The position numbers and the translations under genes are program-made. Positions 29,805 to 37,940 of a stretch of DNA of 64,000 nucleotides are shown in pieces. The notes below the pieces were generated by a model. The model did no database searches. It was not told the origin of the DNA and worked only from the letters and a program-made list of their open reading frames with translations. The first letter of the stretch is position 1, and the number at the start of each line of letters is the position of its first letter. This stretch comes from Sedimenticola sp. (lineage in GTDB: Bacteria; Pseudomonadota; Gammaproteobacteria; Chromatiales; Chromatiaceae). The stretch covers positions 1 to 64,000 of the forward strand of contig JALXAM010000070.1 in NCBI GenBank assembly GCA_026992075.1, in the 5' to 3' direction.

Positions 29805-30440
29805 TCAGACATCGCCATCCCTCTTCCACCCCAGCTTCAGCCGCTTCACCTTGCCCGAGGTGAGTTCCACCTCCTGGTGGGTGGTGAGCACCACCAGGCC
29901 GCCGCCTGCGACGTGCTCGCGGATCACCTCCTGGAGCAGCGCCACCGCCGCGGTGTCCAGGCCCACGAACGGCTCGTCCAGCAGCCAGAGCCTGGCCCTG
30001 CTCACCAGCAGCCGGGCCAGGGCCACCCGCTTCTGCTGGCCCTGGGAGAGCACCCGGGAGGGAAGGTCCTCGTGGCCGCGCAACCCCATGCGTTCCAGCA
30101 CCTCCCACGCCTGGCGCTCGTTGATCGGGTTGCCGGCCAGACGGCAAGCGGTGCGCAGGTTCTCGACGCCGGTGAGGTCGTCCTTGATGCCGTTCTTGTG
30201 GCCCAGGTAGAGCAGCTCGGCGTGGTACTCGTCACGCTGTCCACGGATGGGCCTGCCCTGCCAGCGCACCTCGCCCTCGGTGGGCGTCACCAAGCCGCAC
30301 AACGCCCGCATCAGCGTGGTCTTGCCGCTGCCGTTGTGGCCTTGCAAGTGGAGCAGCTCGCCCGGTTGCAGTTCAAAGGCGATGCCGCTGAACAGGCGCC
30401 GGTCACCCCGGGTGCACTGCAGATTCACCGCTTCCAGCAT
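29805..30440 (-). CDS. ccmA: Haem exporter ATPase CcmA
   Basis: ATP-binding subunit of the CcmABCD release complex. The 211-residue protein has Walker A GHNGSGKTTLMRAL (about residues 35-48), the ABC signature VLSQGQQKRVALARLL (near 130), Walker B LWLLDEPFVGLD (about 151-162) and a switch histidine in TTHQEV. It starts 34 bp after the thioredoxin-like lipoprotein gene on the same strand, so the two are probably co-transcribed. Confidence 0.94.
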   Translation of the reverse strand: MLEAVNLQCTRGDRRLFSGIAFELQPGELLHLQGHNGSGKTTLMRALCGLVTPTEGEVRWQGRPIRGQRDEYHAELLYLGHKNGIKDDLTGVENLRTACRLAGNPINERQAWEVLERMGLRGHEDLPSRVLSQGQQKRVALARLLVSRARLWLLDEPFVGLDTAAVALLQEVIREHVAGGGLVVLTTHQEVELTSGKVKRLKLGWKRDGDV

Positions 30441-30474: not shown

Positions 30475-31089
30475 TTACAACAAAGGCTTCACATAGGTAT
30501 CGAATTCTTCCTGCCCCATCTGCCCACGGTGGATGTACTTGATGCGGCCATCCCGGTCGATGACCACGGTGTAGGGGATGATGCCGGTGGTGTTGCCCCA
30601 GCGGGTCAGCAGTGGCCTTGCGGCAGACGGCTCCAGGATCAGCACCGGGTAGTTGATCTCCAGGCTACGGGCCACGTTGGCCAGTTTGCGTTTGTCGTCC
30701 ACGCCGATTCCGACCAGCTGCAACCCCCGGTCACCATACTCCTCCTGGTAGTGGACGAACTCGGGGATTTCGTACTGGCAGGGTGCGCACCAGCTGGCCC
30801 AAAAGTTCATCATGATCACCTTGCCCTTCCACTCCTCCAGCGAATGCAGCTTGCCATCCAGGCCGCGCAGCTTGAAAGGGATGATCTCCCAGGCGTCGTT
30901 GGTGCGTTCGGGCAGGGTGGTGGTGGCGATTCGCGTCGGAGGTGCAGGGCTTTTCTGCGCCCTGTCGGTTCCGACGGCAGCCCCCATGGCCGGCTTCCCG
31001 GAGCCGTTGCCATCACCGCAACCGGCCAGTAACACCGTGACCAGCAGGAGCCCCAGCCCCCATAGTGGTGCCCACGCTGACTCAGTCAC
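30475..31089 (-). CDS. TlpA-like thioredoxin-fold lipoprotein
   Basis: A 204-residue thiol-disulfide oxidoreductase in the periplasm. It has a lipoprotein signal with LLAGC (Cys about residue 24), a linker of small residues, and a TlpA/ResA-like fold with active site NFWASWCAPCQYEIPEF (Cys near 98 and 101). The GTG at 31089 is chosen because GGAGAGG lies 6 bases upstream; it overlaps the isomerase stop by 8 bp. A GTG 15 bp further upstream is possible. Its place ahead of ccmA suggests reduction of apocytochrome cysteines alongside CcmG. Confidence 0.85.
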   Translation of the reverse strand: MTESAWAPLWGLGLLLVTVLLAGCGDGNGSGKPAMGAAVGTDRAQKSPAPPTRIATTTLPERTNDAWEIIPFKLRGLDGKLHSLEEWKGKVIMMNFWASWCAPCQYEIPEFVHYQEEYGDRGLQLVGIGVDDKRKLANVARSLEINYPVLILEPSAARPLLTRWGNTTGIIPYTVVIDRDGRIKYIHRGQMGQEEFDTYVKPLL

Positions 31090-32380
31090 CTTTGGCCTCT
31101 CCACCGGCGTCGGCCACCACCTTCCACTCCACCGGGTATTTCTCCTGCAGCTCCGCCAGGTATTGCGCGAACTTCTCCTGGATGATCGCCTGCCGCACCC
31201 GGTCCTTCATGGTTTCGAAACGGCGCTTCAAAGCCGGCCTACGCTCCAACACCGTCACCAGGTGATAGCCCAGCGGGCTCTTGATCACCTTGCTCACCTC
31301 TCCATCGGCCATCTTTTTCAGCTCCGCTTCCAACGCAGGATTGCCTTCTCCCTCCTTGATCCATCCCATGTCGCCATTGTGCGCCCGGCCGTAGGGATCG
31401 ATGCTGTAACGACCTGCAAGCGCAAACAGGCTTTCACCAGCCAGAATGCGCTTGCGCATGGCCGCAGCCTGGGCATAGGAGGCGGTCACCAGCTGCCCCA
31501 CGTGCCAGCGCTCCGGCACATAGGAAAGCCCGGGGTGGCCGTCATAGTAGGCCTTGAGCGCGGCATCGTCCGGCGCCCACCGCTTTTCCAACTGCTCCAT
31601 GAGCATGGCGGGCAGGCGTTCCTGACGATAGGCGGCCATCTGGCTGCTGATGTCCACACCCTCCAGCTCTGCCTGCTTGGCAAACAGCAGCAGTTCCGCC
31701 CGCTTGTAGAGACGATCCTCCACCCATTCCCGGGCGGGCGTCCCGGCGGGCTGCTCATCCTCCACCAGGTCTCCATAGGTGATCTCCAGGCCGTGGTCTC
31801 CCTCCATGAGGAGGGTGTCGGCCTTCATTCCCTCGCCGATGCGATCCTCGTGGAAGGTCACATGCAGCAGGTCGCGCAGATGCCGAACGGTGAGCAGCTT
31901 GAGTTCCCGGTAACGCGCCACCAGCTCCGCCGCCCGGGCGGCCTCCAGGGCATCGGCGTCTCCTTTGTACCGGGCCCGAAGAGCCTGTTCCCGATCAGGG
32001 GGCAGCTCGATCTGGCGGCGCAGCTTATCCGTGTAGAAGCGGTAATACTGGGCGATCCGGTATTCCTGCTCCTCCTTCTTGAACGCTTCGGTGGCATCCA
32101 GCCCCCGGGCGTGGGCCTCCTTGCGCAGCAAACGGTAGGCCACCAGCCGCTTGAGGAAATCCCCCCGCAGCTCCGCCTGCGCCTCTTCGTCCAGGGTATT
32201 GAACTGGGTGGCATAGGGTGAGGACCGGATGGCATTCTGGAGATCGGCCAGGGTCACCGTCTCCTCTCCCACCTTGGCCAACACCTCCTGCTCCGCCTTT
32301 CCCGCCGCCTGTCCCGACCAGGCACCCACCAGGGCGCCGGTCAGGAGAAGCACCTGCAATGAGTTTCGTAACAGTTTCAT
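31082..32380 (-). CDS. Periplasmic peptidyl-prolyl isomerase, SurA/PpiC type
   Basis: A 432-residue exported foldase. A signal peptide (MKLLRNSLQVLLLTGALVG) precedes a SurA-like helical domain beginning EVLAKVGEETVTLADL. A parvulin domain follows, with GESLFALAGRYSIDPYGRAHNGDMGWI (about residues 310-336) and SPLGYHLVTVLERRP. The C-terminal helix continues to residue 432. The ATG at 32380 has a GGAGGAAG site directly upstream. It lies between the seven-heme cytochrome and the thioredoxin-like gene, which suggests a role in folding that cytochrome; this is inference. Confidence 0.85.
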   Translation of the reverse strand: MKLLRNSLQVLLLTGALVGAWSGQAAGKAEQEVLAKVGEETVTLADLQNAIRSSPYATQFNTLDEEAQAELRGDFLKRLVAYRLLRKEAHARGLDATEAFKKEEQEYRIAQYYRFYTDKLRRQIELPPDREQALRARYKGDADALEAARAAELVARYRELKLLTVRHLRDLLHVTFHEDRIGEGMKADTLLMEGDHGLEITYGDLVEDEQPAGTPAREWVEDRLYKRAELLLFAKQAELEGVDISSQMAAYRQERLPAMLMEQLEKRWAPDDAALKAYYDGHPGLSYVPERWHVGQLVTASYAQAAAMRKRILAGESLFALAGRYSIDPYGRAHNGDMGWIKEGEGNPALEAELKKMADGEVSKVIKSPLGYHLVTVLERRPALKRRFETMKDRVRQAIIQEKFAQYLAELQEKYPVEWKVVADAGGEAKGD

Positions 32381-32443
32381 CTTCCTCCAGACCTGCTTGC
32401 ATGGAATGCAGGCCACTTCGCCTCGCATTCCTGTTTTGCTTCC

Positions 32444-32474
32444 AACAAAAACAGGGAGCCCGAAAGCCCCCTGT
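32444..32474 (-). terminator. Intrinsic terminator or attenuator after the seven-heme cytochrome gene
   Basis: On the minus strand ACAGGGGGC and GGCTCCCTGT form a 9-bp stem with one G-U pair and a short loop, followed at once by TTTTTGTT. It lies inside the 140-bp gap before the isomerase gene. It would let the cytochrome be made in excess of the downstream isomerase, thioredoxin and ccm genes. Confidence 0.7.
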
Positions 32475-32488
32475 GAAGATTGGAGGAG

Positions 32489-32511
32489 GGAACCGGCCCG
32501 CGGCCGGTTCC
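32489..32511. repeat. Perfect 10-bp inverted repeat just after the seven-heme cytochrome stop
   Basis: GGAACCGGCC, a 3-base centre CGC, then GGCCGGTTCC. It begins 10 bp beyond the stop codon and precedes the terminator at 32444-32474. With no U-run of its own it is more likely an mRNA 3'-end stabiliser than a terminator. Confidence 0.6.
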
Positions 32512-32520
32512 TTCCATCAA

Positions 32521-35004
32521 TCACTCCTCCTCGTCGTCATCGTCCTCGTCCGGGATCCTGCCGCCCAGGTCGGGTGCCGTGGCGTGCATCCATTGAACGG
32601 CCAGATCATAGTCGTCGGCGATGGGCTTGCCCTTGTAGTGGTAATCCTTCTTCTTGGGATCCGCGATGTAGGGCACGCCATTCTCGTTCACCTCGTGGCA
32701 GGCGGCGCAGCGGAACGGGCCATGAGAACCGTCCGGGTTGTATTGCGGTGCCTGCTTGTAGGTGGTGGTGTCCGCCCGCGGCGACACCGGATAGAGCCCG
32801 TGGATGGACTGGTGACAAGCTTGGCAGGCCAGGCCGGCATGGCCCTTGGAGTAGCGCATCAGGCTGTACTTGCCAGGCTGGTTGATGGGGAAGGCAACTC
32901 CACCCTGTCCTTCCACGAAGGGCGCGGCGTGGCAGTCGGCGCAGTGCGGCGCACCGGGCGACAGCCAGTAGTCACGACCATGGGTGGCGGCTTCGTAGGG
33001 CACTGCCGCCGCTCCGGTGGCCCCTTCGGGAAGCTTAAGGCTGGCGATATCCACCGCCGGGTTGGCCGACAGGGGCACCACGTTGATGTCGCCATCCTCG
33101 TCCTTGTGCACCAGCGGGCCGTCACCCTTGAGCGCGATCACCGCGATGTCGGGCACCAGGCGTTTCTTGGCCCAGGTGTGCAGGATCTCGGACTTGCCAG
33201 GAGTGTCTTCACCCTTGGCGTTGAGCACTACCTTGGGATCCATCATCGCCTTCAGCTGGGTCATGGAGACCCCGATGGCCTTGGCGATCTCCGGCAACGA
33301 CTTGTTGCGGATGGTGGTGCCCTCCTGGGTGAAGGCGTTCTTCAGGTTGTCACGCTGATACAGCTCGCGGGAAAGCTGGTTGTGACAGTTGGTGCACCAC
33401 AGCCCCTTGCCGTTCTTGCCGTTGCCGATCTGCGAGACATTGGCCTGCAGCCACTTGCCGATGGCATTGAGGTGCTCGGGCGACTCCACGCCGTCCTTGT
33501 CCTTGCCGGGATAGGAGTGGACATCGCGGCCCACGTAACAACCACCGGCAGCATCCCGGTTGTCGGCGTCGGCATAGGCGTTCTTGCCATCCGGCGTGAT
33601 GGGATAACCCTCCATGCTGCGGTCGTAACGGTGTGCCGGGTGGCAACCCTGGCAGGCGCCGGAACGACCCTGGGAGTCGGGCAGCGGGCGCTTGATCTGG
33701 TGCACCGTGTGGATGGCCTCGGTGAGCGCCGGGATCCGGTGCTCCTTGCCGTCCTTGCCCTTGTGGGTCTTGGAGGCCAGGACACCAATGACGTTGTCGG
33801 CATGGCACTTCTGGCACAGGATGGGATCCCGGCCCAACCGGTTCATGGTGGATCGGCTGTTGGGATTGTAGTGTTTCAGGAAGTCCGTGCCGTTCTTGTC
33901 GTCATGCATCTCCAGGATGGAGATGGAGGTCGCCTTCAGGTCGGCGATCCAGTCGGACGCACCCAGTGCCTTCCAGAAGGCCCGTTCCTGCTTGTAGAGC
34001 TGGTACTTCTTGCCGTTGGCGTTCTCGTTGCCATGACAGTTGGCGCAATTGGGGATGTCGATGGGGTTGGTGCCCACGAAGGTAATGGGCTTGCCGCTGT
34101 GGCTGTCCAACACCGGCTTGCCGGTGTCGGCGTCCACCAGGCTCACCCAGTTCTCCTGGAAGGGCTGGATGTCGCTCTCCACCAGGGTCAGGATGTCCTT
34201 GGCCGCAGTGCGGTCGTTGAAGGGCGTGAGCGGCAGGCCCAGCGCATCCCAGATACCCGGGTTGGTGAGCACGATGGGCACATTGTCCAACACCGGGGAC
34301 TTGGTGAAGACGATGGTTCCCTTGCTACCGGTGTAATGCAGGTGCCCACCCTTCATGGGACTGGGCACCGCTGCCCCGGCAGGGCCGTTGTCACGCGGTA
34401 CCGGGATATCCAGACCCACCACCTTCTTGTCCTTGTCGGCGCTGCCTCCGGTGGGGTTGGTACCCTTCAGGTCCTTGTAGACATACAGGTGGGTCCAGTA
34501 GGCGTTGGCCACGTTCTCGTTGGGACCATACTTGCCATCGCCGTTGACATCATAGGGCACATCCCAGTATTTGAGCTTGTTGCCCTCGGAGTAGGTATTG
34601 TCCACGAAACCATAGGCCAGCTTGAAGCGCTTCTTGCCATCCACCACCACGCTGGCGTCTTCCTCGTCCGCCTCCAGCAACTCGGGATACTTCTTGCGGC
34701 CGGTGGCGGTCTTGATGACCTGCGACTGCACCGAGTTGTAGGGTGGCAGCACGCAACAGTAGCTGAAGTCGAAGCCGGTGCAATGCATGCCCAGCTCATA
34801 GTTGATGGTGATGTTGTAGTCGTTCTTTGGTTTGCTGGGATCAGCCGCCACCGTGGGTCCGCCATACACCTTTGGCTCCATGGGCACCACGGGTGCATGA
34901 GTGGCCTCGGATTTGGCTGTCTCTTTTTCTGCGACCGGTTCCTGTGTGGTACAGGCGCTCGCCGCCAACGCGGCCAATAGGGCTACGGACAGTGCCTTTT
35001 TCAT
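32521..35004 (-). CDS. Seven-heme c-type cytochrome, probable lipoprotein
   Basis: An 827-residue exported electron carrier or reductase that I do not recognise by name. A signal peptide ends near ALAASACTT, suggesting lipidation at Cys18. Residues 60-315 form a heme-free domain with the striking segment GMHCTGFDFSYCCVLPPYN (Cys75, Cys83, Cys84). Seven CxxCH sites follow, with haem histidines at 324, 401, 455, 541, 692, 731 and 770. The protein ends in an acidic tail, PDEDDDDEEE. It heads the block with the isomerase, thioredoxin and ccm genes. Outer-membrane placement and electron partner are inferred; no porin gene is near. Confidence 0.85.
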   Translation of the reverse strand: MKKALSVALLAALAASACTTQEPVAEKETAKSEATHAPVVPMEPKVYGGPTVAADPSKPKNDYNITINYELGMHCTGFDFSYCCVLPPYNSVQSQVIKTATGRKKYPELLEADEEDASVVVDGKKRFKLAYGFVDNTYSEGNKLKYWDVPYDVNGDGKYGPNENVANAYWTHLYVYKDLKGTNPTGGSADKDKKVVGLDIPVPRDNGPAGAAVPSPMKGGHLHYTGSKGTIVFTKSPVLDNVPIVLTNPGIWDALGLPLTPFNDRTAAKDILTLVESDIQPFQENWVSLVDADTGKPVLDSHSGKPITFVGTNPIDIPNCANCHGNENANGKKYQLYKQERAFWKALGASDWIADLKATSISILEMHDDKNGTDFLKHYNPNSRSTMNRLGRDPILCQKCHADNVIGVLASKTHKGKDGKEHRIPALTEAIHTVHQIKRPLPDSQGRSGACQGCHPAHRYDRSMEGYPITPDGKNAYADADNRDAAGGCYVGRDVHSYPGKDKDGVESPEHLNAIGKWLQANVSQIGNGKNGKGLWCTNCHNQLSRELYQRDNLKNAFTQEGTTIRNKSLPEIAKAIGVSMTQLKAMMDPKVVLNAKGEDTPGKSEILHTWAKKRLVPDIAVIALKGDGPLVHKDEDGDINVVPLSANPAVDIASLKLPEGATGAAAVPYEAATHGRDYWLSPGAPHCADCHAAPFVEGQGGVAFPINQPGKYSLMRYSKGHAGLACQACHQSIHGLYPVSPRADTTTYKQAPQYNPDGSHGPFRCAACHEVNENGVPYIADPKKKDYHYKGKPIADDYDLAVQWMHATAPDLGGRIPDEDDDDEEE

Positions 35005-35020
35005 GATTCCCCCCTTCTTG

Positions 35021-35179
35021 GGAACCTCTGATCTAACCCATGAACTCGCATCTTATCCTCCTCCGGCCCGATTACTGCGTTGAAGTTCTTGCCAATAGCA
35101 GGCTATTGGCAAGAACTTCGCCTTGCACTCGAACCGGAGGAGAACAATCTGCTTCGTCCAGGATTAAATCAGAGGTTCC
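35021..35179. mobile_element. MITE copy 3 (159 bp) in the seven-heme leader region
   Basis: The element starts GGAACCTCTGATCTAACC, ends with the complementary inverted repeat, and is flanked by CTTG (35017-35020 and 35180-35183). It contains an 18-bp perfect palindrome (35082-35099 and 35102-35119) with a 2-base centre and outer arms CCTCCGG/CCGGAGG. It lies 16 bp from the cytochrome ATG, so it must be crossed by any transcript of that gene that begins further upstream, and would fold into a strong hairpin in the leader. Confidence 0.88.
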
Positions 35180-35183
35180 CTTG

Positions 35184-35525: not shown

Positions 35526-36287
35526 ATGAAAACAGCGAACCTGGGAAAGCGGACGACGAGGCTGTTGACTGGAATCTGTTTCGCCACTCTCGCTTCCGCC
35601 AGCTGGTCCGAACCTTTCAAAGACGTGGCACCTCCTCATCTCAAGGAGTTCGAGGAGGCGATGAAACTGGAGCCGAACATCGACAACGGCCGTCAGCTCT
35701 ACAAGCGTTATTGCATCACTTGTCATGGCCCGGAGGGCTGGGGGGTTGCCGGCAGCGGCTATCCCCAGATCGCCGGACAACTCAAGGACGTGATCATCAA
35801 ACAATTGGCGGATTTCCGGGCAGGCAATCGTGACAACCCCATCATGCGGGCCTTCTCATCGCGCCGTTCCCTGGGCGGCCCCCAGGAGATCGCCGACGTG
35901 GCCGCCTACATTTCCTCCCTACCGATGAACCCGCGCAACGAGAAAGGCTTCAGCCTGCGCGTGGAAGAGGGGCGCAAACTCTACCAGGAACTCTGCTCCG
36001 ACTGTCACGGAGAACGAGCCGAGGGCGATCCGAAGCGCCACGCCCCCAAGCTGGCGGGCCAGCATTACAGCTACCTGATGCGGCAATTCAACTGGATCCG
36101 CAATGGCTACCGGCGCAACGCCGACAAGAAGATGGTGGAACAGATCCAGGAGATGACTCCGAGCCAGCAGGTGGCCATCATGTCCTATCTCTCCCACCTG
36201 CGACCGGACAACCTGGCCCCGGAAGGGTGGCGAAATCCCGATTTCGACTACTTCGATCGCAGCTGGCGACCAGCTACGTTGCACTGA
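35526..36287 (+). CDS. Diheme cytochrome c, c4-like
   Basis: A 253-residue periplasmic electron carrier. A signal peptide (about residues 1-28, ending ASWSEP) precedes two class I cytochrome c domains with CITCH (about residues 63-67) and CSDCH (near 157-161). Distal methionines are likely in NPIMRAFS and KKMVEQIQEM. The two-domain layout resembles cytochrome c4, though with an N-terminal extension of about 30 residues. The gene diverges from the seven-heme cytochrome and converges on the ankyrin gene. It may link the NapC-type quinol dehydrogenase to a terminal partner. Confidence 0.85.
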   Translation: MKTANLGKRTTRLLTGICFATLASASWSEPFKDVAPPHLKEFEEAMKLEPNIDNGRQLYKRYCITCHGPEGWGVAGSGYPQIAGQLKDVIIKQLADFRAGNRDNPIMRAFSSRRSLGGPQEIADVAAYISSLPMNPRNEKGFSLRVEEGRKLYQELCSDCHGERAEGDPKRHAPKLAGQHYSYLMRQFNWIRNGYRRNADKKMVEQIQEMTPSQQVAIMSYLSHLRPDNLAPEGWRNPDFDYFDRSWRPATLH

Positions 36288-36387: not shown

Positions 36388-37371
36388 TCAGTGGGGGTTT
36401 TCCTGGTCACTGGCCTCTTTCAACAGTTTCAGGCAGCGTCCGTCCCGCATACTCTTGGCCATGTCCATGGCACTCTTGCCCCCCTTGTTCTTCCGGTTGA
36501 CGTCGGCACCGTAGGAGAGTAGCACCTTAACCACCTCCGGTTCACGCACGTCCACCGCCTCCATCAAGGCGGTGATGCCATCGTTGTCGGCCGCATGAAT
36601 GTCGGCACCATGCTGCAGCAGATACTCCACCGCCGCCACATTTCCGGCACCGGCCGCCCAGATGAGCGGGGTGGCTCCGTCCTTCGAACGGGCATTGACA
36701 TCGGCCCCGGCTTCCACCAGCGCCTTCACCACCTCCATGTTCTTGCCCTTCTCCACCGCATGGACAAGAGCCGTTTTCCCTTTCTTGTCCTTCAGATTCA
36801 CCTTGGCGCCATGCTTGAGCAGCAGCTTGACGATCTCCGGATGGTCGTGTTCCGCGGCCAGCATCAGGGGGGTGCGCCCCTCCTTGTCCCGGTCATTGGG
36901 GTCGGCGCCGCGGAACAGGAGCTGTTCCAGCATCTCCTTTTCACCATACCGCGCCGCCAACAGACAGGGCGTGGTACCCGCCCGGGTACGCGCATTGAGA
37001 TCCGCGCCCCGCTCGATGAGAAGCGCGGTGACCTCCTGTTCCCCGTTCTCCGCCGCCAGCGTGAGTGCGGTGCAGTCGGCCACCGTCTTCCGGTTGACGT
37101 CGGCACCCCGCTGCAGCAACAGGGAAACCGCACCCAGGTTGCCGTTCTCCGCGGCCATCATCAGTGCGGTCTTTCCATACTTGTTTGCACTGTTCACATC
37201 GGCACCCTGGTCGAGCAGCTTCTCGATGGCCTCCACGTCGCCCACGGATGCCGCCAGCCGCAGCTCACGCCCCAGCTCCTCCTTGTCCGGCTTGTCCCCC
37301 GCCCAGGCCTGGAAGGCCAGCAGCAACACCAACAGAACCGGGATGATCCTTCCTGTTCGAATCTTCATCAT
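36388..37371 (-). CDS. Periplasmic ankyrin-repeat protein
   Basis: A 327-residue exported protein with a signal peptide (to about residue 24, FQAWA) and about nine ankyrin repeats filling the rest; repeats read GKTALMMAAENGN...LLLQRGADVN with regular spacing of about 33 residues. No enzyme domain is present. Periplasmic ankyrin proteins in other bacteria often sit beside redox or stress enzymes and act as scaffolds, which fits here, next to the NapC-type cytochrome (27 bp upstream, same strand). The first of two adjacent ATG codons (37371) is chosen by its GAGGAG site. Confidence 0.85.
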   Translation of the reverse strand: MMKIRTGRIIPVLLVLLLAFQAWAGDKPDKEELGRELRLAASVGDVEAIEKLLDQGADVNSANKYGKTALMMAAENGNLGAVSLLLQRGADVNRKTVADCTALTLAAENGEQEVTALLIERGADLNARTRAGTTPCLLAARYGEKEMLEQLLFRGADPNDRDKEGRTPLMLAAEHDHPEIVKLLLKHGAKVNLKDKKGKTALVHAVEKGKNMEVVKALVEAGADVNARSKDGATPLIWAAGAGNVAAVEYLLQHGADIHAADNDGITALMEAVDVREPEVVKVLLSYGADVNRKNKGGKSAMDMAKSMRDGRCLKLLKEASDQENPH

Positions 37372-37397
37372 CGTCACTCTCCTCGCACCCCCGGCCA

Positions 37398-37940
37398 TCA
37401 CTCTTCGTCTTCTTCGTCCTCGGGCTCGTCAGGCTCTTCGTGCGCGATGCCCTGATGACAATCGATGCAGGTCTTTCCTTCATCCCGGGCTCGGCCGTGA
37501 CGCTTGCGCGCACTGCGGTCCTGCTCGGCCAGATCCATCGCCTCCCAGGAATGGCAGGAACGACATTCTCGTGAGTCCGAAGCTCTCATCTTTGCCCACA
37601 CCGCATTGGCCATCTGCCAGCGACGAGCCTCGAACTTCTCCTTGGTATCGATGGTACCCAGAATCTCGTGGTAGACATCCTTGGCCGCCATCACCTTGGC
37701 CACCATCTTGGGAATGAAGGACTTGGGAACATGGCAATCGGCACACCCGGCCCGCACCCCGGCAGGATTCTTCCAATGAATGGTCTCCTTGAGCTCCTCC
37801 AGATTCCACTTCATGCTGTGACACGAAGTGCAAAACTCCAGTTGGTTCGTAAAATGCAACCCCACGTTGAACAGGCCGGCGAAGACCACACCGGCCAGAA
37901 AGATGACGATGGCGATACCCAGGCTGATGCGTTGAGCCAT
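37398..37940 (-). CDS. NapC/NirT-family tetraheme c-type cytochrome (membrane quinol dehydrogenase)
   Basis: A 180-residue inner-membrane protein with one N-terminal helix (about residues 5-24) and four CxxCH motifs: CTSCH, CADCH, CRSCH and CIDCH. The first reads CTSCHSM, the CxxCHxM pattern of NapC/NrfH proteins, where Met binds the quinol-side haem. Such proteins take electrons from quinol and pass them to periplasmic cytochromes or reductases. No nap, nrf or nir catalytic gene is present. It ends in an acidic tail (EEPDEPEDEEDEE), as the seven-heme cytochrome does. It heads a two-gene unit with the ankyrin gene. Confidence 0.88.
   Translation of the reverse strand: MAQRISLGIAIVIFLAGVVFAGLFNVGLHFTNQLEFCTSCHSMKWNLEELKETIHWKNPAGVRAGCADCHVPKSFIPKMVAKVMAAKDVYHEILGTIDTKEKFEARRWQMANAVWAKMRASDSRECRSCHSWEAMDLAEQDRSARKRHGRARDEGKTCIDCHQGIAHEEPDEPEDEEDEE

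Follow-up and report, generated by a model that had tools for sequence, protein, structure and literature searches.

What might a domain without hemes, placed in front of the hemes of a multiheme cytochrome and holding a compact cluster of histidine and cysteine residues, contribute to the protein that carries it? The question is raised by a c-type cytochrome gene in a window of Sedimenticola sp. DNA (the window being the whole stretch analysed, 64,000 nucleotides), for which a preliminary description had singled out an HC...YCC cluster in the heme-free region of the protein. The cytochrome is periplasmic and belongs to sulfur-oxidising and methane-oxidising bacteria. Its features and those of the neighbouring genes are collected in Table 1.

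Table 1 Features of the cytochrome locus, with positions counted in the window
Feature	Position	Strand	Basis
Seven-heme c-type cytochrome	32521..35004	(-)	827 aa ORF; predicted lipoprotein, LAASAC lipobox, C18, by eye
Heme-free N-terminal domain (NTD), residues 54-319, predicted mainly beta	34048..34845	(-)	AlphaFold2; no significant Pfam, NCBIfam or PDB-sequence match
Seven-heme part, residues 320-770	32695..34047	(-)	CxxCH scan and Pfam Cytochrome_C7
Motif LGMHCTGFDFSYCCVLPPYN, residues 71-90, with H74, C75, D79, C83, C84	34735..34794	(-)	20/22 columns of residues 70-91 invariant, 81 sequences
EF-hand-like loop DVNGDGKYGPNE, residues 152-163, in the heme-free domain	34516..34551	(-)	alignment, 81 sequences
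Second invariant non-heme cysteine site C489YVGRDVH496	33517..33540	(-)	C489, R493, D494, H496 81/81
PpiC-type (parvulin, SurA-like) peptidyl-prolyl isomerase (PPIase), next gene downstream	31082..32524	(-)	Pfam Rotamase 52.7 bits
TlpA/ResA-like thioredoxin (WCAPC)	30475..31104	(-)	NCBIfam ResA subfamily E 6.5e-22, below cut-off
CcmA, first gene of cytochrome c maturation cluster	29805..30440	(-)	NCBIfam ccmA 234 and 276 bits, over cut-off
NapC/NirT-family tetraheme quinol dehydrogenase	37398..37940	(-)	NCBIfam napC_nirT 227 bits, below cut-off 310.6; 4 CxxCH
Diheme c4-like cytochrome, divergent	35526..36287	(+)	2 CxxCH

The protein carries CxxCH motifs at residues 320, 397, 451, 537, 688, 727 and 766, and besides these seven we found neither CxxCK nor an atypical C(X3-20)CH motif in its 827 residues. 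With the earliest CxxCH at C320, the preliminary statement that some 255 residues before the first heme motif are free of CxxCH agrees with our scan; the span given there for the domain (34040-34824, residues 61 to 322) covers the heme-free domain, although its end just touches the first heme motif. Apart from the 14 heme cysteines the protein has C18 (of the lipobox), C75, C83, C84 and C489. Between the lipobox and residue 320 the only cysteines are C75, C83 and C84, all of them inside GMHCTGFDFSYCCVLPPYN (residues 72-90 in precursor numbering), and the numbers originally assigned to His74, Cys75, Cys83 and Cys84 match the precursor numbering of the translated ORF exactly. The Pfam match to Cytochrome_C7 (PF14522; 32.9 bits, above the gathering cut-off of 24.8) is confined to residues 687-771.

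The first description could assign no family to the heme-free domain, and our searches lead to the same result. Nothing significant was returned for the NTD by NCBIfam (with no family at E 0.01 for the whole protein), by Pfam across the 81 family members aligned below (DUF5057 appeared in two, best E 0.04, and EF-hand_5 in one) or by PDB sequences, where an antibody chain came closest (E 0.13) and a second search gave no match. Against PDB sequences the full-length profile reached E 0.029 at best, in the heme part, and a copy from the sister branch introduced below had no match. AlphaFold2 produced fair models of the full-length protein (pLDDT 80.1, pTM 0.83) and of the NTD alone (mean pLDDT 83.5, pTM 0.82), with the NTD mainly beta in both. 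Foldseek reached E 0.1 at best with the full model and E 0.016 with the NTD, the latter at an rmsd of 20-30 Å, and VIA-align gave best Z values of 3.0 and 3.8, respectively, for antibodies and complement proteins that were all tied; the copper proteins FetP and P19 appeared at Z 2.9 with the full model, tied with other rows. As modelled, the NTD has fold matches that are weak Ig-like generalities only. We found no database name for the multiheme cytochrome superfamily whose N-terminal beta domain is formed here by residues 54-319, and in our searches of open-licence PMC papers we recognised nothing as this family. In sulfur oxidisers and methanotrophs the large multiheme cytochromes often go without assignment, and a domain model would result here for a family that the libraries searched have missed.

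Relatives were gathered by scanning 84,980 species, each represented by a single genome, being picked up by the patterns WCTNCHN or PKN[DS][YF]NI[TM] and not by the cysteine motif, and the best 80 of the 127 found were kept and aligned with the window's own protein. Their record titles, which cover Gammaproteobacteria among other groups, name Sedimenticola, Thiolapillus, tubeworm symbionts, Thiotrichaceae, Methylobacter and other Methylococcales, Gallionellaceae, Sulfuricella, Nitrospinota, vent Bacteroidota and two contigs of one bin labelled Hyphomicrobiales (phylum labels are the titles of metagenome bins, some of which could be mistaken). Sets A1 and A2 share genomes; L006 and L028, for example, look like one contig. 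The diversity of the 81 sequences is moderate, the lowest pairwise identity being 55% and clustering at 80% giving about 25 groups, and invariance among them may be overstated because 47 of the 127 relatives lie outside the alignment.

Far from varying freely among homologues, a possibility raised when the cluster was first described, H74, C75, C83 and C84 are each kept in 81/81 sequences, as are E70, D79 and Y82 and, further along the protein, C489, R493, D494 and H496. Residues 70-91 are the densest conserved block of the protein, the non-overlapping 22-column windows reaching 14/22 at most. Shuffling residues 19-319 produced a motif of the form HC-x(5-9)-CC 3 times in 100000, and its conservation in all 81 aligned sequences (the window's own included) places it beyond chance; the cluster is confirmed as unchanged in every close relative examined. 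The first strand of the superfamily's NTD leads into (D/E)LGMHC, and in the present branch TGFDF-x-YCC-(V/I)-LPPYNS follows. Such conservation points to an unstudied site, which could be an active site or one of redox control. C489, which lies after heme 3 and belongs to neither the hemes nor the lipobox, is the fourth invariant non-heme cysteine, and must be counted with the C75/C83/C84 cluster. The NTD also contains an EF-hand-like loop in which D152 and E163 are invariant (81/81) and positions 154 (N or D) and 156 (D or N) are restricted in all 81 members; it may bind calcium, and one of the 81 members gave a weak Pfam match to EF-hand_5 (E 0.025).

The distribution of the family is patchy. 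With counts that are lower bounds, because the searches score only some candidates per genome, matches in a sample of 55 related genomes were found in 9 of the 14 other genomes of the genus (84-93% identity), in one genome of another genus of the family (81%) and in a third genus, whose longer and divergent member has nine CxxCH and 49% identity in the best stretch. On the same footing, evenly drawn samples gave 2/398 genomes of the phylum (the window's genome included), 82/210 of the order (both branches counted), 10/24 of the phylum reached through a Nitrospinota locus and 2/198 of that reached through a Saprospiraceae locus (the centre locus itself and one weak match).

A second copy of the superfamily in the same genome (contig C7, locus L020) has nine CxxCH motifs and introduces the sister branch just mentioned. 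Among 19 sister-type proteins there are nine CxxCH in 18 and eight in one (L119), and all 19 carry NDLGMHC-x-D-x-D...LPP at the same place, with the D, H, C and D of the motif invariant and with FS, SS, AS or similar at the position of CC. Outside the hemes just two of their cysteines are invariant, that of GMHC and another soon after the heme-3 motif (in CLRGAM, or in one protein CMRGAM); the other non-heme cysteines often stand in nearby pairs. Profile comparison of the NTDs of the two branches gave an hhalign probability of 98 (E 2.9e-13), which rose to 99.7% (E 5.6e-26) when the profiles ran from the NTD through heme 3. These values support homology of the two NTDs and a superfamily with at least two branches, so that the NTD studied here is, judged by profile similarity, a homologue of that of a mostly nine-heme family, which keeps only the H-C of the cluster. 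The window's protein has (D/E)LGMHC and LPP in its NTD and then hemes 1-3 in the same order, as in the GMHC superfamily; membership of the sister branch itself was rejected, given its seven hemes and GGCYVGRDVH against eight or nine hemes and CLRGAM or CMRGAM after heme 3. C489 may correspond either to the cysteine of CLRGAM or to the first cysteine of the sister proteins' heme 4, a heme that is absent here. Three long members of the CC branch (L022, L161 and L164) combine CC and C489 with nine CxxCH, and CC is therefore independent of heme number. At L020:5653-8136 the nine-heme paralogue of the window's own genome adjoins genes that resemble, by eye, those of a sensor kinase and a response regulator.

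The acid, histidine, cysteine and aspartate residues invariant in both branches, together with the branch's own cysteines and a second invariant site after heme 3, lead us to favour, tentatively, a thiol/imidazole composite site at the interface between the NTD and the hemes, which may bind a metal or be catalytic. One observation against such a site is that the invariant non-heme cysteines are even in number, four here and two in the sister branch, which disulfides would explain as readily as a metal site. The cysteines may accordingly be structural disulfides or a redox switch, C75 pairing with the post-heme-3 cysteine throughout the superfamily, and C83 with its neighbour C84 (or a rewired set) in this branch. 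We rank this reading, itself a possible one, next after the composite site because of the even cysteine numbers in an exported protein. The pairing of other non-heme cysteines in the sister proteins and the TlpA-like thioredoxin gene nearby speak for it too, as does C75-x8-C84, which shares the CX8C spacing of MtrC, where these cysteines are reported to form a disulfide that controls flavin reduction (PMC9973256). However, the motif's histidine, acids and tyrosines are as invariant as its cysteines, and a mere disulfide would not call for the invariance of E, H, D, Y and N in the block. Furthermore, the NTD has no detectable profile similarity to seven OmcA/MtrC-family proteins in a comparison of little power (hhalign probability 0.2 over 14 columns, low-diversity profiles); the compared profiles being low in diversity, distant homology to OmcA/MtrC is compatible with this result.

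The models bear on a further alternative. In the model of the NTD alone, pLDDT is below 50 at residues 75-80 and 82-84, and in the full-length model the block means of the motif loop are 70 and 68, which suggests that the loop packs on the heme part, a change in pLDDT between two separate predictions being a hint only. If the loop does pack in this way, H74 (or C75) could be the distal axial ligand of one heme, and the loop an electron-entry structure without chemistry of its own; DsrJ provides an example of a heme with His/Cys ligation. Yet nine invariant histidines outside CxxCH, besides H74, are available for the seven hemes, so that H74 is not needed as a ligand by count, and C83 and C84 would be left unexplained. 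We consider this role unlikely. The sister branch likewise has nine histidines conserved in at least 18/19 proteins for its nine hemes and, since both branches have enough for hemes that are all bis-His, no open heme is implied.

In the window the cytochrome gene is followed by those for the PPIase, the TlpA-like thioredoxin and CcmA, with further ccm genes presumably beyond, to judge by gene order; upstream lie the genes for the NapC-type protein, an ankyrin-repeat protein and the diheme cytochrome. The NapC/NirT-type protein and the diheme c4-like cytochrome are candidate electron partners. The ankyrin-repeat protein (window 36388-37401), apparently exported (by eye), is encoded between the genes of these two, and stands at the same place in other genomes of the genus. 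A 161-bp palindromic element (window 35020-35180) begins 15 bases upstream of the cytochrome's start codon; it has imperfect inverted arms (73%) around a perfect 18-bp inner hairpin, and forms a MITE-like family with at least 39 other places in the genome at 75-96% (40 of 49 candidates scored).

A PPIase gene lies directly downstream in 58 of the 66 loci with at least 1.5 kb of downstream sequence (the exceptions being L063, L086, L088, L093, L104, L105, L106 and L107). This recurrence raises the possibility that the block is kept chiefly to guide folding or maturation, the LPPYN prolines, for example, being a PPIase client, rather than to serve as an active site. LPP and GMHC are also present in the sister branch, yet with the window's own PPIase as query, by which very divergent PPIases could be missed, no match was seen at any of the 14 sister-type loci that extend at least 1 kb downstream, whereas all three CC-type loci of that length compared alongside have one (the count omits L119, L121, L171, L179 and L180, with less than 1 kb, L120, with a split frame, and L175, with no LPP motif). 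We regard a signal of this kind as very improbable. PPIases also adjoin other redox systems: in the Uet cluster (UetJ, UetA, UetB) of cathode-oxidising Tenderiales and some Gallionella the peptidylprolyl isomerase UetB accompanies multiheme cytochromes (PMC10734462), and the PPIase MofB is reported beside a multicopper oxidase (PMC5566968). A PPIase alone consequently says little about a metal. Of 50 loci with at least 3.2 kb downstream, 33 have a TlpA-like gene on that side, whichever the strand, and L050, L052 and L060 have one upstream; among the 14 sister-type loci a single one (L172) has such a match.

The remaining neighbours are diverse. NapC is nearby in 15 of the 57 loci with at least 3.5 kb of upstream sequence, a c-type cytochrome BLAST cluster, mostly diheme, lies at most three ORFs away in 29/80 loci, and a COX1 relative was found near 14 of 82 sequences searched, mostly in methanotroph loci. 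One of these (L078) has both COX1 and COX2 by Pfam, the latter with the CuA-like motif CNEYCGMGHDHM, and the oxidase may be of ba3 type. Heavy-metal P-type ATPase genes stand beside the cytochrome gene in L083, L086 and L090 (Pfam) and in L072 (BLAST cluster), directly before it in L086, with 3 bases between the open frames; because L072, L083 and L090 also hold an oxidase gene, a reading of the ATPases in terms of copper is weakened. Hydrogenase genes (labelled by eye) occur near the Saprospiraceae loci. Eight-CxxCH cytochromes are found near some family members (L068:7056-8600, L072:523-1983 and L053:2783-4303), and those of L068 and L072 match Pfam Multi-haem_cyto (PF13447).

Sulfur genes also occur. 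In five of nine Nitrospinota-type loci (L093, L095, L096, L097 and L098 among L093-L101, several of them short) dsr genes precede the cytochrome, with dsrC, dsrK and dsrO over the NCBIfam cut-offs, dsrP and a contig-cut dsrB below them, dsrL labelled from a general match and position, and a three-CxxCH frame at the place of dsrJ in L093, L095 and L096. Between dsrP and the cytochrome, two of the loci encode a protein of 313-320 residues with no Pfam match (L095:8810-9748, L093:8813-9772). In L048, a Gallionellaceae locus, aprA and sat are at most 6 kb away, and the opposite flank has a molybdopterin oxidoreductase, which we take for SoeA. The window's own genome has dsrB, as do 181/210 genomes of the order, 43/45 with the CC type against 138/165 without it (p 0.049, the 45 having been typed by hand at E < 1e-150 and not by reading each motif). 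A role in sulfur metabolism alone was left as a weak candidate, dsrB being nearly universal in the order and COX1 and hydrogenase being neighbours elsewhere; indeed, any sulfur role is weak because the neighbours vary so widely (oxidase, NapC, hydrogenase).

From what sequence conservation, sister-branch homology and gene neighbourhood establish, we infer the spatial contacts, the metal or substrate, the electron direction and the partner roles of the following scheme. An old core of H74, C75, D79 and E70, to which the CC branch would have added C83 and C84, would meet the post-heme-3 loop (C489, R493, D494 and H496) at the interface of the beta domain and the heme part, where a thiolate/imidazole centre might bind a metal ion, or a small substrate that perhaps contains sulfur, beside a heme. 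The seven hemes would carry electrons between this centre and NapC (quinone), or a diheme cytochrome and an oxidase, and the co-encoded PPIase and TlpA thioredoxin would fold the cytochrome and keep its cysteines reduced. A bolder version, which we consider rather doubtful, has a site of H74/C75 and C489 beside a heme throughout the superfamily, which CC would turn into a branch-specific centre, built for example on copper or on a reactive cysteine that carries sulfur, for the oxidation or reduction of a sulfur species, with NapC, cytochrome c or an oxidase giving or taking the electrons; the family would then be a periplasmic metallo- or thiol-enzyme not described so far, found in lineages assigned to three phyla or more.

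How does the protein compare with known systems? The mcc cluster includes a PPIase, and the copper of MccA is held by two cysteines beside a heme. The MccA/SirA haem c-copper sulfite reductases resemble the present case in combining a multiheme cytochrome with a clustered TlpA-like thioredoxin (SirH), but membership was rejected: they have eight hemes with an atypical CX12NKGCH or CX15CH, whereas here there are seven regular CxxCH motifs and, as a further difference, a beta domain before the hemes. Loss of the SirA helper SirH is reported to delay sulfite reduction by 48 h (PMC6976685). The Uet cluster shares the association of a multiheme cytochrome gene with a PPIase, but its cytochromes are described as undecaheme, tetraheme and triheme (PMC10734462), numbers that differ from the seven found here.

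The outer-surface decaheme cytochromes MtrC and OmcA (TIGR03507; PF22113) are similar in joining a beta domain to a multiheme part. We nevertheless reject membership, the protein having seven hemes and no match to TIGR03507 in NCBIfam; its genome, too, gave no TIGR03507 match at E 1e-30. MtrC/OmcA have 2+2 domains and ten hemes in two pentaheme modules, against one beta domain and seven hemes here, and H74 and C83 are extra. In Pfam, residues 672-733 resemble MtrC/MtrF domains II/IV weakly, with a score below the cut-off (24.5 bits against 30), and residues 324-474 of MtrC (6qyc) superpose on the NTD with Z 3.3 and an rmsd of 4.3 over 119 aligned residues, tied with Ig-like rows whose best Z is 3.8. 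The mostly nine-heme DLGMHC...LPP cytochromes share a homologous NTD and hemes 1-3 (by profile comparison), DLGMHC, LPP and the cysteine after heme 3, and differ in lacking CC, in having more hemes and in lacking the PPIase neighbour at their 14 loci. With a recurrent PPIase partner and one dense non-heme block on one side and a sister branch without CC on the other, the two branches offer a clean mutational and structural test of non-heme chemistry in a multiheme cytochrome.
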